The notes under the pieces: generated by a model
Seen by the model: the letters and a program-made list of their open reading frames with translations, nothing else
The model's database searches: none
Told to the model about the DNA's origin: nothing
Shown here: positions 17,212 through 24,634 of the stretch, piece after piece
How positions within the stretch are numbered: the first letter of the stretch is position 1
Layout of the letters: each line of letters begins with the position of its first letter
NCBI GenBank assembly: GCA_947623815.1
Contig: CANQHO010000006.1
Location: 1 to 40,083, forward strand
DNA: 40,083 nucleotides
DNA from: an uncultured Bacilli bacterium
Lineage (GTDB): Bacteria; Bacillota_I; Bacilli_A; RF39; UBA660
Direction of reading: 5' to 3'
Translations under genes and position numbers: made by a program

Positions 17212-18870
17212 ATGAAGATTGAAAATGATGTAAAAATATTAAACTTAGATGATATTTTGCCAAATCGTTTTCAACCAAGAATTACTTTCAACGAACAAGC
17301 TATTTTGGAATTAGCTGATTCCATTAAAGAACATGGAGTAATCCAACCAATAATTGTTAGAAAAATAGCTGATAAGTTTGAAATAATTGCGGGAGAAAGA
17401 CGATATAAGGCAAGTGTATTAGCTGGTAAAACTAACATACCTGCTATAGTAGTTGATTTAAATGATAAAGATAGTGCTGAAATAGCCTTGATCGAAAATG
17501 TTCAAAGACAAGGATTAACCCCAATAGAAGAAGCAGTATCGTATAAAAAAATTCTTGATATGGGTTATTTAAATCAATCCGACTTAGCTAAAAAACTTGG
17601 AAAAAATCAATCGACAATAGCTAATAAATTAAGACTATTAAACTTAAGTGATGAAGTTCAAGATGCTTTATTAAAAGAAAGAATATCTGAACGCCATGCC
17701 CGTTCCTTATTAAGATTGGATAAAGAAAAACAAAATGTTATGTTAAATAGAATTATTACTGAACGCTTAACAGTTAGAAAAACTGATGAAGAAATAAGAA
17801 AAATGTTAGAACAATCAGATGATGATAATGGTGAAGAAAAACAATTAAATCCAATAAAGAAAGAAGGAAATGAAAATATGAATCAAAATGATGTAAATAA
17901 TGTTAATGTACCAAGTGAACCAGTTCAAGAAAATACTATAAATCCAGGATTTATGGATGTTAATAAAATAGAAAGTCAAGCAAGAGATATAAATAGTGTT
18001 TCCATGACTCCAGAAACTCCTGCTGTGGAACAGGCAAATGCTTCAATATTTACTGCTCCATCTCCAGTTGAAGTAACCCCAACACCTGTTACTACTCCAG
18101 AACCAGTATCAAATAGTATACCTCAACCGGATGTAGTTACTCCTCAGAGTTCATTTGATACTCCTCAAACTCCACAGATGGCAGTTCCACCTGTAATGCC
18201 AACTGAACAACCTATGCCACAACCAGATTTTAATCCAATGGAATCTGAATTAGTAAGTGGAGGAAAATTCTTTAATATACCTGTTGATAATGGAAATGAT
18301 GTAAATAATAATATGAATACTCAACCAGTTAATAATACTTTTGGTATTCCAACTCAACCTATTATGGGTCAAGAAAATGTAGCAATGCCAGAAACTAATC
18401 AAGTAAATCCAGTTGCTTCTATGTTTGCCGCCAATCAAAATCAAGCAGTTGAAAGTATACCAACAACACCTGATATGACCAAAATAAATTCTAATTTAAG
18501 TGCTCCAGTAAATAATGAACCTATATATAATCAAACTATTCCTAATGAACCAATAATTACGCAAAATCCAGCAATGACAAATCCAAGTCCAATGAATTCA
18601 TTTGGAATGAATCAAACCCAAAATATGGGAAATTTTAACCCTAATCAAAGTTTAGTGGAAATAGGAGGCAATGGTGTAGCAACTGAAGAACCTGTTTTAC
18701 AACCAGTTATGCAAACAGTTGTCCAACCAAAAAAAGCTGATTTAAAAGAAGCAATTATGCTAATTAGAAATTGTGCAGATAAAATAGAAAGTATGGGATT
18801 TATAATTGATGTAGAAGAATTAGATTTTGAAAATTCTTATCAAGTTTCTTTTAAAATAAATAAAGATTAA
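17212..18870 (+). CDS. noc: Noc-type ParB-family nucleoid occlusion protein with a long linker
   Basis: ParB-family CTP switches spread on DNA; Noc keeps the division ring off the nucleoid. The 552 residues comprise the N-terminal CTP domain with NRFQPR (18-23), GERR (61-64) and ENVQR (95-99), and an HTH domain (121-165). The family C-terminal dimer domain is at 505-552, where IMLIRNCADKIESMGF to YQVSFKINK resembles the end of Bacillus Noc. At the four residues that separate Noc from ParB it has Gln133, Lys139, Asn144 and Arg161, that is three of four Noc-type. The N-terminal amphipathic membrane helix of Noc is absent. Between the two halves lie about 300 residues of Pro/Asn/Gln/Thr-rich, probably disordered sequence. 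The rsmG neighbour matches Bacillus. No parA or second parB is nearby. Confidence 0.85.
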   Translation: MKIENDVKILNLDDILPNRFQPRITFNEQAILELADSIKEHGVIQPIIVRKIADKFEIIAGERRYKASVLAGKTNIPAIVVDLNDKDSAEIALIENVQRQGLTPIEEAVSYKKILDMGYLNQSDLAKKLGKNQSTIANKLRLLNLSDEVQDALLKERISERHARSLLRLDKEKQNVMLNRIITERLTVRKTDEEIRKMLEQSDDDNGEEKQLNPIKKEGNENMNQNDVNNVNVPSEPVQENTINPGFMDVNKIESQARDINSVSMTPETPAVEQANASIFTAPSPVEVTPTPVTTPEPVSNSIPQPDVVTPQSSFDTPQTPQMAVPPVMPTEQPMPQPDFNPMESELVSGGKFFNIPVDNGNDVNNNMNTQPVNNTFGIPTQPIMGQENVAMPETNQVNPVASMFAANQNQAVESIPTTPDMTKINSNLSAPVNNEPIYNQTIPNEPIITQNPAMTNPSPMNSFGMNQTQNMGNFNPNQSLVEIGGNGVATEEPVLQPVMQTVVQPKKADLKEAIMLIRNCADKIESMGFIIDVEELDFENSYQVSFKINKD

Positions 18871-18946: not shown

Positions 18947-21900
18947 ATGAGTGATAAATATGTAGAAGAAGATTTAACAACAATTTATTTAAAAGAAATA
19001 AATAAAAATTCTCTTTTAAGTAAAGAAGAAATTTTAACTTTTTTCAATGAATATAAAAAAGGAAATCAAGAAGCAAGAAAAAAATTGATTGAAGGAAATT
19101 TAAAATTAGTAGTTAGTGTCGCCAAAAAATATATAAATCTTGTTCAAAGCTTAACTTTATTAGATTTAATTCAAGAAGGAAATCTAGGACTTATAAGATC
19201 AATTGAAACATATAATCCTAATTTTGGTTCTTTTTCAACTTATGCCACCTTATGGATAAAACAGTTTATAATAAGAGCTATAAAAAATAAAGAAAAAAAT
19301 ATAAGAATTCCAGAAAATTTAATAACAGTAACAACTAATTATAAAAAACTTATAAAAGAATATATAGATGAAAATAATATTATGCCAACTGATGAGTATA
19401 TAAAACAAAAATTGAATATAAGTGATGCTATTTTAGATTATTTAAAAAAAGCTAAAATATATAATACTAAAAGTATCAATGAACCTATATTAGATGAAGA
19501 TGGAAAAGAAATATCAGAAACAATTAAAGACAAACATGACGATTATAATGCTTTAATAAGCAATATAGATAATTATGATCTTTTTGTAGTAATAAAAAAT
19601 TTATTAACAAATAAAGAATATTACATTATTTATAATAGAATATTAACTGATGATAGAAAAAGTTTAGAAACATTAGGAAAAGAGTTTAATTTAAATGGAG
19701 AAACCATAAGAATAAATGAAAAAAAAGCTTTAAAAAAAATAAGTAATTATATAAAGAAAGAAAGTGAACCATATAAAACTAAATTAACTATACTTAGAAA
19801 TCTATATAAAGAAAAATATTATAAATTAAAAATAGAACCAATAAAACCAGATGATATTTGTATTTATTTATATTTAGATAATAAAATTTCAGAGATAGAA
19901 AAGAAAATATTATATTTTAAAACTATGAGCAAATTTCAATATAGTACTGAAGAAATAAGTGAAATGATTGGAATAAGTTTCCAAGAATTTATAAAATTTG
20001 ATAATCATTTAAATATTATAATAAAAGATACATTAAAATCTAATAAATTCAAAGAATATAAGAATAATATAATAAAAGAAAAACGATTTAAGATATTTGA
20101 TTATGTTATAAATCAGCCAGAAATAGAAATAGATTATAAAAAAATAAAAAATCAATATTTTGATAAAGATTTAGATGAAATTAAGAATATTTTTAAAGAA
20201 GAATTAGATAAATTAACTAATCAAGAAAAAAATATCTTATTTAAATTTTTTAATCAAAAAGAATATTATAATACATCTAGTTACTTAATAAATAGAGAAA
20301 TAAATTTATTACTAAATGGTTATAAAAATAAAATAAAAAATGTCAGTTTTAAAATTTTATATCAAACTTTTCAAAAAAATAAAGACTTATTTTCTTTAGA
20401 ACAAATTCTTTTTTTAGAATGTTATATATTTAATGTCAAAAATCAAAAAGAATTTAAAATAAAATATCCAAATAGTCCTTTATTAAAATATAATTCTTTT
20501 TTGATTGATAGATTAGAAATGATTTATTATGGGATTTATAAATATTATGAACTAAATTTTGATATTAAAAAATATTTAGAAATAAAAGAAAAATATAAAC
20601 AAGAAATTGGGAAAAATAGAATAAAAATTTTAGATTTATTTTATATAGAAAAAAAATCGATTCAAGAAATTGCGGATATAATTCAAAATTCTTATGATAA
20701 AACCCATGATATGTTAAGAAATGCTCGTAAAAAAGTAATAAATATATATACCAATCAAACTCAAAAAAAATTATTTAATAAAAATTTATATTCTAAATAT
20801 ATTTTAAATCCCAACTTTTTAATGTCCAATGATAATCGAAAAATTTTATATCTTTATATAATAGAAAATAAAACTTATGAAGAAATAAGTCAAGAAACTA
20901 AATTAACTAAATACAAAATATCAAATATAATTACTGAAAACATAAAAAAAATAGATAATTATCGATTTAATCTATTAACATTAAATGAATATAATGAAGA
21001 AATATTAAATGACTTTTTTCATTTTTATGAAAAAAACTTTACCAAAGAAGAACAAATGATTATTAAAGATAGATATCTTAATGGTAAAGATAATCAAACA
21101 TGTTCATTACAATATAACAAGCCCAAAAATAAAATAAATAGAATAATTAGTAGATTTAATGAACTTTATATAGCATATCAAATTAAAGATGTAGAAATAA
21201 CTAAAGATGAGATAAAAGAAGAATTAAATAAATCTAAAATAGAAAGTGTACTATCTGAAAGAGAAAAAGAACTATTATCATATTATTATGGTATAAAAAG
21301 TAAATATAATATAGAAAGTAAAGTTTTAAACACAAAAGAAATATATGAAAAATTAAATATTGGGAAAAATATTTTTTATCATATTTATAATAATGGTATA
21401 ACTAAAATAAAAGAAAGAAAAATAGGAATTATTAAACCCGATCTTTTATATATTGAAAAGGAAGAATTAAAAGAATTATTAAATGATTGTCATTTACCTA
21501 TATCGTTAAAAGAAAGAGAAATAATTAACTATTTATTTGAATTTAATAATTATCCTTATAAAAATATCGATGAATTAGCCATGTTATATGGAGAAAATTC
21601 TAGCAGTATAAAAAGAAGATATGATAGAGCTATAGTTAACATTTTAAAATATAAGAATAATGAAATAGAAGGAATAATTAACTTTGAATATGATATTTTA
21701 CCAAACTTAAAATATTTTCCTAATAATTATCAAAAATTTTTAATAGATTATTACAAAAATAATTTAACATATAAAGAAATATCCAAAAAATATAAAATGA
21801 CATTTGATCAAGTTGTGCCAATTTTTAATCGTTTAAAATATGAAATTTTTGAAATATTAAATAATCCTAAACAAAAAAAATTTGATTTTGAATTTTATGA

Positions 21901-22525
21901 ACAAAATCAAAACAATCCGCGATTACCTTTTTATGGTAATAGAAATTTAGCCAATCAAATTTTTAGATTATATTTTGGTATGGATAATATAATGTGTAAA
22001 TCGATACCACAAATAAAAAAAGAATTAAATATTAAATATGAAACAACAACAATAGATAAAATAATAAATTATTACATGTTATCTTTTTCTAAATTACAAA
22101 GTGGAATTGAAAAAAAAGAAGAATTTAGTTATGAAGAAATAAAGAAATTTTATATAAATTATCAAAGTGAAATGAAAGCGTTTGTTAAAATATCATTTAT
22201 AAATTACTTAAAAAGAATAGAAAATAACAATTATTATTTTTTAAAAAAAACTAATATCAATTATGTCGTATTATTTGAAATGTTAAAAAAATATAATTCA
22301 AATTTATTTGATGTTCAAAAAATAACCAGTCAAAATGTCAAAATAATTTTAAAAAAATATAATAAAATTATCAATAAAAAAGTAAGAAATGACTTGATGT
22401 ATTTATTTAATATAAGTGAGAGAGAACTAATGAATGGAAAAGAAATAAATCATTTATATAGAATTTTAAATAAATTAGATATTCAAAAACAAAAAGACCA
22501 ATCTAAAAAATATATAAAAAAATGA
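18947..22525 (+). CDS. Giant sigma-70-family protein with tandem HTH (sigma4-like) extension
   Basis: Residues 1-270 are a recognisable RpoD-like sigma factor: region 1.2 (8-40), sigma2 (43-113, with NLKLVVSVAKKY and FSTYATLWIKQ), sigma3 (119-200, starting IRIPENL) and sigma4 (212-270, with SLETLGKEFNLNGETIRINE). The first Trp of the promoter-melting pair TWWIRQ is Leu102 here. About 920 further residues follow, in which I count eight or nine degenerate modules of 'helix, x, helix-turn-helix' type. The clearest start near 318, 557, 630, 700, 768, 853, 927 and 1000 (for example IIENKTYEEISQETKLTKYK and KNNLTYKEISKKYKMT). Usual sigma factors have 250-600 residues. The frame is intact, with a good ribosome site and terminator, so it is expressed as one protein. 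Function unknown: an alternative sigma factor, or a promoter-array-binding regulator. Confidence 0.85.
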   Translation: MSDKYVEEDLTTIYLKEINKNSLLSKEEILTFFNEYKKGNQEARKKLIEGNLKLVVSVAKKYINLVQSLTLLDLIQEGNLGLIRSIETYNPNFGSFSTYATLWIKQFIIRAIKNKEKNIRIPENLITVTTNYKKLIKEYIDENNIMPTDEYIKQKLNISDAILDYLKKAKIYNTKSINEPILDEDGKEISETIKDKHDDYNALISNIDNYDLFVVIKNLLTNKEYYIIYNRILTDDRKSLETLGKEFNLNGETIRINEKKALKKISNYIKKESEPYKTKLTILRNLYKEKYYKLKIEPIKPDDICIYLYLDNKISEIEKKILYFKTMSKFQYSTEEISEMIGISFQEFIKFDNHLNIIIKDTLKSNKFKEYKNNIIKEKRFKIFDYVINQPEIEIDYKKIKNQYFDKDLDEIKNIFKEELDKLTNQEKNILFKFFNQKEYYNTSSYLINREINLLLNGYKNKIKNVSFKILYQTFQKNKDLFSLEQILFLECYIFNVKNQKEFKIKYPNSPLLKYNSFLIDRLEMIYYGIYKYYELNFDIKKYLEIKEKYKQEIGKNRIKILDLFYIEKKSIQEIADIIQNSYDKTHDMLRNARKKVINIYTNQTQKKLFNKNLYSKYILNPNFLMSNDNRKILYLYIIENKTYEEISQETKLTKYKISNIITENIKKIDNYRFNLLTLNEYNEEILNDFFHFYEKNFTKEEQMIIKDRYLNGKDNQTCSLQYNKPKNKINRIISRFNELYIAYQIKDVEITKDEIKEELNKSKIESVLSEREKELLSYYYGIKSKYNIESKVLNTKEIYEKLNIGKNIFYHIYNNGITKIKERKIGIIKPDLLYIEKEELKELLNDCHLPISLKEREIINYLFEFNNYPYKNIDELAMLYGENSSSIKRRYDRAIVNILKYKNNEIEGIINFEYDILPNLKYFPNNYQKFLIDYYKNNLTYKEISKKYKMTFDQVVPIFNRLKYEIFEILNNPKQKKFDFEFYEQNQNNPRLPFYGNRNLANQIFRLYFGMDNIMCKSIPQIKKELNIKYETTTIDKIINYYMLSFSKLQSGIEKKEEFSYEEIKKFYINYQSEMKAFVKISFINYLKRIENNNYYFLKKTNINYVVLFEMLKKYNSNLFDVQKITSQNVKIILKKYNKIINKKVRNDLMYLFNISERELMNGKEINHLYRILNKLDIQKQKDQSKKYIKK

Positions 22526-22600: not shown

Positions 22601-22669
22601 AAATGTTAAAATACTAAAAAATTAAGTTTAAAAAAAATTTATTTTATAATAATAAAAAAGGTGATATTT

Positions 22670-24634
22670 ATGAATAAAATATTTGATTTAGTATCAAATT
22701 ATAAACCTAGTGGAGACCAACCTCAAGCGATAGAAAAATTAGTAGAAGGTATTAAAAATAATGATAAATATCAAGTGCTATTAGGGGCTACAGGAACAGG
22801 TAAAACTTTTACCATAGCGAATGTAATTAAAAAAATAGGTAAAAAAACTTTAGTTTTAGCCCATAATAAAACGCTTGCTGGACAACTTTATGCTGAATTA
22901 AAAGAGTTATTTCCCAATAATCATGTAGAATATTTTGTTAGCTATTATGATTATTATCAACCAGAAGCCTATGTAGCTAAAACCGATACTTATATTGAAA
23001 AAGATGCGGCCATTAACGATGAAATAGACGAATTAAGACATGCTGCTACTTCTGCTCTTTTAAACAATGATGATGTAATCGTTGTAGCCTCAGTATCATG
23101 TATTTATGGAATAGGTGAAATAGAAGATTACAAAGACAAAATGCTTACTTTAAATGTTGGTGACATCATCAATCGAGATGATATTATGTTAAAACTAGTT
23201 GATATGTTATATGAAAGAAATAACTTAGAATTAAAAAGAGGTACCTTTAGAGCCAGAGGCGATATTTTAGAAATAATTCCTGTTAATCAACATGGTAAAG
23301 CCATAAGAATTGATTTTTTTGGTGATGAAATAGATAAAATATTAGAATATGATACCTTAACGGGAAATATTTTAAATCAGAAAAAAAGTATTTCTATTTT
23401 TCCTGCTAGTCATTTCGTGACTAACGAAGAAAAACTAAAAAAAGCCGTTGCCAATATAAAATTAGAATTAGATGAACAATTAGCCTATTTTAAAGCTAAC
23501 GATAAATTGCTTGAATACCAAAGATTAAAAGAAAGAACAAATTATGATATGGAGATGTTACTTGAAACCGGAAGTTGTCGGGGAGTGGAAAATTATTCAA
23601 GACAATTGGCTTTAAAACCTAAAGGGGCAACTCCTACTACTTTAATGGATTTTTTTGGTGATGATTATTTACTTATTGTTGATGAATCACACGTAACTTT
23701 ACCCCAAGTTAGAGGTATGTATCATGGAGATCAAGCCAGGAAACAAGCCTTGGTAGAATATGGATTTAGATTGCCTAGTGCTTTGGATAATAGGCCATTA
23801 AAATTTAATGAATTTGAAAAAAAGATAAATCAAGTTATTTGTGTATCAGCCACTCCTGGAGATTTTGAATTGGAAAAAGCCAGTCAAGTAGTAGAACAAA
23901 TAATTCGTCCAACTGGTTTGTTAGATCCTAATATTGAAGTCAAACCAACCGTTGGACAAATCGATGATTTACTTATTCAAATAGAAAAAGTAAAAGAACA
24001 AAATGAAAGAGTTTTAATAACTACTTTAACCATCAGAATGGCGGAAGAATTAACATCTTATTTAAAAAATTTAGATATTAAAGTTGCTTATTTACATTCC
24101 GAAGTCAAAACATTACAAAGATTACAAATTATCCGCGATTTAAGAATGGGAAAATACGATGTTTTAGTAGGAATCAATTTATTAAGAGAGGGATTAGATA
24201 TACCAGAAGTATCTTTAATTGCTATTATGGATGCGGATAAACAAGGATTTTTAAGAAGTGATCGGAGTTTGATTCAAACGATTGGCCGGGCGGCTAGAAA
24301 CGCTAATGGTCGTGTAATAATGTATGCGGATACTATTAGTGAATCAATGGAAAAGGCTATCAATGAAACCAAAAGAAGACGAGAAATTCAAGAAAAATAT
24401 AATAAAGAACACAATATTATACCAAAAACAATTATTAAAGAAATTCGAGAAGTTATATCAAATAATGAAGAAAATATTGAGGCTAAAGAAGTAAAATTAA
24501 GTAAAAAAGATAAAAAGGAATTAATTATTAAAGTCGAAAATGAAATGCAAGAAGCTGCCAAACAACTTGATTTTGAAAGAGCAATGGAACTTAGAGATAT
24601 TTTATTTGAATTAAAAGAAAATAATAGTAAATAA
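22670..24634 (+). CDS. uvrB: Excinuclease ABC subunit B
   Basis: UvrB is the DNA-damage-verifying helicase of nucleotide excision repair, loaded by UvrA and cut-partner of UvrC. The 654 residues show Walker A GATGTGKT (about 39-46), the beta-hairpin region [10 protein letters not shown], the DESH Walker B, helicase motif [11 protein letters not shown], and a C-terminal UVR coiled-coil domain ([16 protein letters not shown]). The ATG at 22670 is favoured by AAAAGGTGA; the GTG at 22661 is part of that site. uvrA does not follow, unlike Bacillus. Confidence 0.97.

Follow-up and report, generated by a model that had tools for sequence, protein, structure and literature searches.

Sigma factors are usually thought to read two short promoter boxes with one sigma2 and one sigma4 domain. 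Some extracytoplasmic function (ECF) sigma factors carry C-terminal extensions in addition, among them ECF41 with SnoaL, ECF42 with TPR, and ECF56 (PMC3426412, PMC8999054). A scheme for cyanobacterial sigma-70 factors provides for non-canonical sigmas with duplicated domains; in the accessible parts of that source no array as long as the one described here is reported (PMC11119718). This array is encoded in a 40,083-nucleotide stretch of DNA (the window; contig CANQHO010000006.1 of assembly GCA_947623815.1) from an uncultured Bacilli bacterium. An open reading frame with an ATG start, at 18947 to 22525 on the + strand, encodes a protein of 1192 amino acids in which a sigma factor is followed by a long series of sigma4-type modules; coordinates, strand and length agree with an earlier note on this DNA. 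The parts are known from sigma-70, and their arrangement appears to be new. The author of the note knew of no described sigma factor of this design, and we also found none in the open-access literature, an absence that is no proof.

Residues 6-272 are covered by the NCBIfam sigma models TIGR02394 and TIGR02393 and align end to end with group 2/3 alternative sigma-70 factors (RpoS, SigA-like; PF04542, PF04545). The core-binding helix, the finger and a canonical sigma4 are shared with these proteins; unlike them, the window protein adds 900 residues of sigma4-type modules, and its melting pair and -10 residues are relaxed. The extended ECF factors are the nearest described idea, since they also combine a sigma factor and a C-terminal extension in one chain. 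However, ECF factors have no sigma3 and their extensions are of unrelated folds and ca. 100-200 residues long, whereas the window protein appears to have a sigma3 region and is extended by sigma4 itself. It also falls outside the ECF group by its domains: region 3 and the finger are aligned and modelled, and SnoaL, TPR or another known extension domain is absent.

The sigma part and the module array

By these alignments, residues 9-268 are assigned to a sigma-70-type sigma factor with regions 1.2, 2, 3, 3.2 and 4. SigA and RpoS structures from the PDB align over residues 9-267/272 with E values down to 3e-35. The complete-looking sigma start that the earlier note had described is real by Pfam, NCBIfam and structure-based alignment. 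With the Pfam model Sigma70_r4 the whole protein scores 63.9 bits against a curated cut-off of 24.1, while the canonical copy alone reaches 20.9; the best stretch, residues 630-668, lies outside canonical sigma4. The gene and the sigma part are laid out as follows.

18947..22525, + strand: whole gene, sigma factor with sigma4-module array (open reading frame list, Pfam, NCBIfam, PDB alignments, AlphaFold2)
18971..19300, + strand: sigma regions 1.2 and 2, residues 9-118 (Pfam Sigma70_r2 at 1.5e-15; family residue counts)
within 18971..19300, + strand: core-binding helix LLDLIQEGNLGL at residues 71-82; L102/W103 at the place of the melting pair
19301..19462, + strand: sigma region 3, residues 119-172 (aligned in the NCBIfam and SigA/RpoS comparisons, AlphaFold2 helices, while Pfam Sigma70_r3 stays silent)
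19463..19570, + strand: region 3.2 linker or sigma finger, residues 173-208, with acidic EPILDEDGKEI (SigA alignment; low model confidence at 170-208)
19571..19750, + strand: canonical sigma4, residues 209-268 (Sigma70_r4 E 2.6e-4 on the slice; AlphaFold2 helices 210-219, 222-233, 240-246 and 251-268)

AlphaFold2 modelled the full protein with a mean predicted local distance difference test score (pLDDT) of 83.2 and a predicted template modelling score (pTM) of 0.56 from a 21-sequence alignment, and the extension alone with a pLDDT of 88.9 and a pTM of 0.69 from 22 sequences. Residues 270-1192 are all-helical in the model and the four-helix pattern of sigma4 recurs along them, in modules m1, m3 to m10 and m12 of the list below; m2 and m11 are less regular helical units. 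Module starts are 59-108 residues apart. The best PDB fold matches of the extension model are sigma factors, at weak E values of 0.03-0.3. Repeated helix-turn-helix (HTH) folds, set beforehand as the structural check on the claim of a repeat array, are therefore present in the model.

To compare the modules by sequence, 13 modules were delimited by the helix boundaries of the AlphaFold2 model, without regard to sequence similarity, and aligned pairwise with hhalign. The 78 real pairs scored 25.0 on average with a maximum of 52.3, and 28 of them had a probability of at least 80. By comparison, 936 column-shuffled pairs gave a mean of 9.2 and a maximum of 19.0 with none at a probability of 50 or above, 156 reversed pairs reached at most 16.4, and none of 39 pairs with sigma2/3 slices had a probability of at least 80. 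Canonical sigma4 was closest to m1 (49.7, probability 97) and scored 21-34 against m4-m10; the tightest set was m4, m5, m6 and m9 (47-52). A self-comparison of the whole profile in hhalign had given no off-diagonal matches at the settings used, and the module-by-module tests with controls took its place. In addition, a sigma4 model was built solely from sigma factors without an array (the outside model), and family members were counted in which a module exceeded the 99.9% level of shuffled sequences. Sigma2 gave 0/29 in this test, and sigma3, itself an HTH, 3/28. The modules, with hhalign scores and outside-model counts, are:

19847..20035, + strand: m1, residues 301-363, nearest to canonical sigma4, recognition helix not basic (3/34)
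20171..20314, + strand: m2, residues 409-456, degenerate (m2-m12 32.5, m2-m8 29.2; 10/34)
20348..20527, + strand: m3, residues 468-527, helix pattern only (AlphaFold2; weak by sequence, 1 member)
20564..20749, + strand: m4, residues 540-601, clear sigma4 type (m4-m5 51.3; 28/34)
20780..20965, + strand: m5, residues 612-673, clear sigma4 type (Sigma70_r4 at 630-668; 20/34)
20996..21184, + strand: m6, residues 684-746 (m6-m9 49.6; 9/34)
21203..21424, + strand: m7, residues 753-826 (m7-m8 46.3; 20/34)
21458..21655, + strand: m8, residues 838-903, well conserved by entropy, with the most basic recognition helix by charge (27/34)
21683..21862, + strand: m9, residues 913-972 (m9-m5 52.3; 15/34)
21887..22099, + strand: m10, residues 981-1051 (m10-m5 35.6; 5/34)
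22130..22294, + strand: m11, residues 1062-1116, helix pattern only (AlphaFold2; 0 members)
22328..22519, + strand: m12, residues 1128-1191, diverged, with a conserved GKEINHVYRIL-like end (m12-m8 37.2, m12-m2 32.5; AlphaFold2; 2 members)

Nine extra sigma4-type modules, m1, m2 and m4-m10, are thus supported at the sequence level, for m1 and m10 mainly by profile-profile comparison and fold. Module m12 is probably of sigma4 type, and m3 and m11 would bring the number to as many as twelve by their modelled helices. The modules are homologous to one another and to sigma4, a DNA-reading domain. Since the shuffled and reversed controls, the outside model and Pfam agree, the earlier count of eight or more tandem sigma4-like modules was right. 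Sigma70_r4, the profile that the earlier note had proposed for a search with each module, matches the extension in 22/22 members scanned (best 4.5e-20). In the window protein alone a single extra module is individually significant (630-668, E 2e-4). Domain matches that recur in the extension are of the Sigma70_r4 type or other HTHs only.

Distribution, selection and variants of the family

The extension is present in 17/386 genomes of the same taxonomic family, from 12/150 genera. Further members came from 385 genomes of the order that were searched with a profile, every one of them reported as belonging to that family. Among 84,980 species representatives there were 18 loci, each in a metagenome assembly of uncultured Bacilli, Bacillales, Tenericutes, Firmicutes or Bacillota; a contig scan queried with the window protein alone gave no matches. 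One carrier among the 18 loci is named Candidatus Coprovivens excrementavium, whose genus we take to belong to GTDB order RF39, an assignment unconfirmed by the searches. Sporulation under unusual regulation has been predicted for RF39 (PMC10868615), and nothing was found that links the giant sigma protein to sporulation. No convincing relative occurred outside the family in a class-wide sample, where four weak matches of 72-79 residues (E 6e-7 to 6e-6) are consistent with generic HTHs. Within the same genus, genome G240 carries the gene at 71% identity and G135 is without it.

The 26 intact long sigma-bearing copies, of 1092-1226 amino acids and from uncultured gut Bacilli, are colinear end to end, with roughly equal conservation in the extension and the sigma part. 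In six pairs the ratio of nonsynonymous to synonymous substitution rates (dN/dS) was 0.26-0.46 in the extension, against 0.26-0.47 in the sigma part, rough values because dS is high in some pairs. Both parts are under purifying selection by this measure, indicating a real family and not decay. That the tail of an otherwise ordinary sigma factor is meaningless or in decay would be compatible with broken copies in G087 (a frameshift at the junction) and G053 (an in-frame stop in sigma4), but this explanation is largely refuted by the intact and conserved long copies, the module controls and the dN/dS values, and we regard it as the least probable of all. The same two copies had raised the idea of a split gene by design, with sigma and m1 in one gene and m2-m12 in another; they look like decay and the idea was dropped.

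Modules are gained and lost within the family. Short forms consisting of the sigma part and m1, mostly 394-431 amino acids, occur in several genomes and usually end at about residue 395 of the window protein. Because several of them are placed next to long forms of their own clade in the sigma tree, short forms probably arose more than once. In G437 (L105:2355-4244, - strand) a protein of 629 amino acids has the sigma part and m1 followed by a second sigma4-m1 pair that is 31% identical to the first (E 7e-21), direct evidence that modules do duplicate. Locus L124 (197-8705) holds four tandem relatives, of which three (926, 1008 and 451 amino acids) start at sigma4 without sigma2/3 and the last is sigma-bearing; these could be array proteins working in trans. 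G357 encodes a 978-residue array-only protein, and in L128 region 3 and the finger are missing. As array-only relatives keep the array and are without sigma2/3, no element of the family is more constant than the segment from sigma4 to m12. Between the tandem copies L120a/b, identity is 63% in the sigma part and 39% in the extension, a difference that the reading part may have acquired once the gene had been duplicated.

Possible roles of the array

We favour, at about an even chance, the explanation that the protein is an alternative sigma factor, chromosomally encoded and specific to its lineage, with an array that would read long upstream promoter DNA or wrap it. The N-terminal 270 residues would join core RNA polymerase via region 2.2 and handle the -10 region, while canonical sigma4 would read the -35 box. 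Behind it nine to twelve HTH modules, arisen by repeated sigma4 duplication and joined in a rigid chain, would lie along the DNA upstream of -35 and read or wrap a long composite element, and an element of this length would confine the holoenzyme to few promoters. This explanation is preferred because the core-binding helix is kept, the extension is basic and so are the recognition helices of m6-m9. Also in its favour are the homology of the modules to sigma4, the confident model of the extension with its weak sigma-factor fold matches, the purifying selection on the extension, the constancy of the array, and the sigma factors with other long arrays in the same order described below. The region 2.2 residues D73, E77 and Q76 are retained in 37/40, 35/40 and 32/40 family members, respectively. 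The net charge per 100 residues is +4.7 for the extension and +1.1 for the sigma part, and −0.1 (standard deviation 2.9) for other window proteins of more than 200 residues. Core binding by the window protein, contact between array and DNA, and promoter selectivity are what we infer from these features. The roles that the earlier note had put forward, in which the protein would read several -35-like elements at once, condense or clamp DNA, or sense a signal, are likewise hypothetical.

Several observations weigh against an upstream-reading array. In m1, m4 and m10 the recognition helix is not basic, and in several modules its residues vary widely among members. When the genome was searched for a second copy of the region upstream of the giant sigma gene, there were only chance-level matches and no long one, and no target element was found. 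The first melting Trp is kept in 4/40 members (replaced by P, Y, I, L, S and others) and the second in 25/40, and the equivalent of the -10 residue Gln437 is present in 17/40; the residues for melting and for -10 reading are relaxed in the family. Alternative sigma factors are often without the Trp pair, which is not required of them. For this reason, and because the first Trp survives in so few members, Leu102 is not distinctive: the earlier note had the residue right, but the change is uninformative about promoter opening.

The recognition helices that are not basic speak for the main rival, a protein-binding or switching role, in which degenerate sigma4 modules would bind the polymerase flap, an anti-sigma factor or another partner, or fold back, and so turn the sigma part on or off. 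Sigma4 domains do bind the beta-flap and anti-sigma factors as well, and forms without m2-m12 recur. The role would resemble that of ECF sigma factors regulated via C-terminal extensions, and described sigma extensions serve as sensors or switches (PMC8999054). Yet no partner gene is conserved alongside, with neighbours differing among genomes, and in an array-only protein there would be no sigma part on the same chain to control. We consider this role possible but rather unlikely.

The array-only proteins bear on two further explanations. One is that the array is a self-standing reader, acting in cis in sigma-bearing copies and in trans in L124 and G357 together with polymerase or a sigma-bearing neighbour, while the chain changes in evolution as sigma4 modules are gained and lost; this we hold only tentatively, as slightly less probable than the switching role. 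The other, which seems improbable, is a sigma-derived antagonist or DNA-organising protein that holds polymerase or coats DNA and has lost transcription start. Along with L124 and G357, the relaxed melting and -10 residues and the incomplete L128 protein would fit such a loss. Against it, region 2.2, most of region 2.3 and canonical sigma4 are kept in many members (e.g., G109, G168, L115, L116 and G348), and in close pairs purifying selection acts on the sigma part, as described above.

If the favoured explanation of an upstream-reading sigma factor holds, the array may enable it to read a much longer stretch of promoter DNA than is read by any known sigma factor, and a sigma4 domain multiplied about ten times would demonstrate that duplicating a domain can lengthen the reach of promoter reading. 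The natural series of 1, 2, 4 and about 12 modules offers a test of how sigma4 copies diverge, and the design could yield very selective sigma factors for synthetic biology.

Genomic setting and other large sigma factors

The two flanking genes lie on the same strand as the giant sigma gene:

17212..18870, + strand: ParB-family protein, Noc-like (Pfam ParB_N and HTH_ParB; also the neighbour in G240 and G246)
22661..24634, + strand: uvrB (identified by sequence; a short relative in G294 also adjoins uvrB)

Homologues near noc and uvrB, which the earlier note had suggested looking for, thus occur beside one or the other in three other genomes, with noc preceding the giant sigma gene in G240 and G246 as in the window. 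A second common place, in G168, G265, L115, L116 and L128, is between obg and a predicted flavin adenine dinucleotide-dependent oxidoreductase gene, with one small gene intervening on the obg side; these genes are named by sequence only. Elsewhere the neighbours vary and there is no constant partner gene. The host genome (1.36 Mb, 96 contigs) encodes an ordinary 364-residue primary-type sigma factor on a different contig.

These surroundings bear on whether the protein is a component of an anti-phage or mobile element, for example like MzaA of the MZA system (NF041931, PDLC02203). The PADLOC MzaA model does match, over the generic sigma part only, which is C-terminal in that model (profile 421-658 of 683) and N-terminal in the window protein (residues 34-268). 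The defence assignment was rejected on this ground. Patchy occurrence, tandem duplicates and fast divergence would suit a mobile element; however, the immediate neighbours look housekeeping, and searches of phage records, of plasmids and of viral contigs found no relatives. Around the giant sigma gene, where the flanks were identified by sequence as Noc-like and uvrB and the neighbours were not PADLOC-scanned, no MZA genes were recognised. Phage or plasmid origin was likewise set aside, as there were no such matches and the viral fold matches were low-TM, some of them to sigma or HTH proteins. Altogether, we judge an anti-phage or mobile component very improbable.

The Noc-like neighbour itself has a stretch of ca. 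280 residues rich in Pro, Asn, Gln and Met, probably disordered, between its DNA-binding part and C-terminal end, and the Noc-like proteins of G240 and G246 are similarly long. A transposase-like open reading frame (L120:4013-5914) lies between the two tandem full-length copies of L120.

Other sigma factors of the same order also carry long arrays. In L040 (3082-5853, - strand) and L039 (4118-8367, + strand) a complete sigma-70 is followed by 7 and 12 Helicase-associated (HA, PF03457) repeats, respectively, the second gene running off its contig. The HA domain is thought to bind nucleic acid. As in the window protein, a sigma factor precedes a long series of small helical domains that probably bind nucleic acid; HA repeats, however, are of a different family and mutually much closer, while the sigma4 modules of the window protein are old and diverged. 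Because of these HA-bearing sigmas, the combination of a sigma factor with a long array arose more than once in the order, and this group of uncultured gut Bacilli appears as a place where sigma factors are rebuilt. HA arrays did not prove to be a common sigma fusion: 0/10 further HA regions examined had a sigma motif.

HA-only repeat proteins of 766+ and 1386 amino acids lie at a contig end (L154) in the same genome as L039 and may be its continuation. In the host genome, G000:C4:10300-15500 (L148) and G000:C11:3500-8500 (L149) encode proteins of 919-931 amino acids with a helicase-like start and several HA repeats, without sigma motifs. L108:2482-9597 (+ strand) encodes a protein of 2371 amino acids in which a complete sigma-70 (regions 1.1 to 4) is followed by ca. 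2000 residues without a confident Pfam match. Further large sigmas of the order, 696-950 amino acids with long N- and C-terminal parts of unknown kind, are encoded at L109:1503-4355, L110:2671-5079, L041:2786-4876 and L112:2166-4298.

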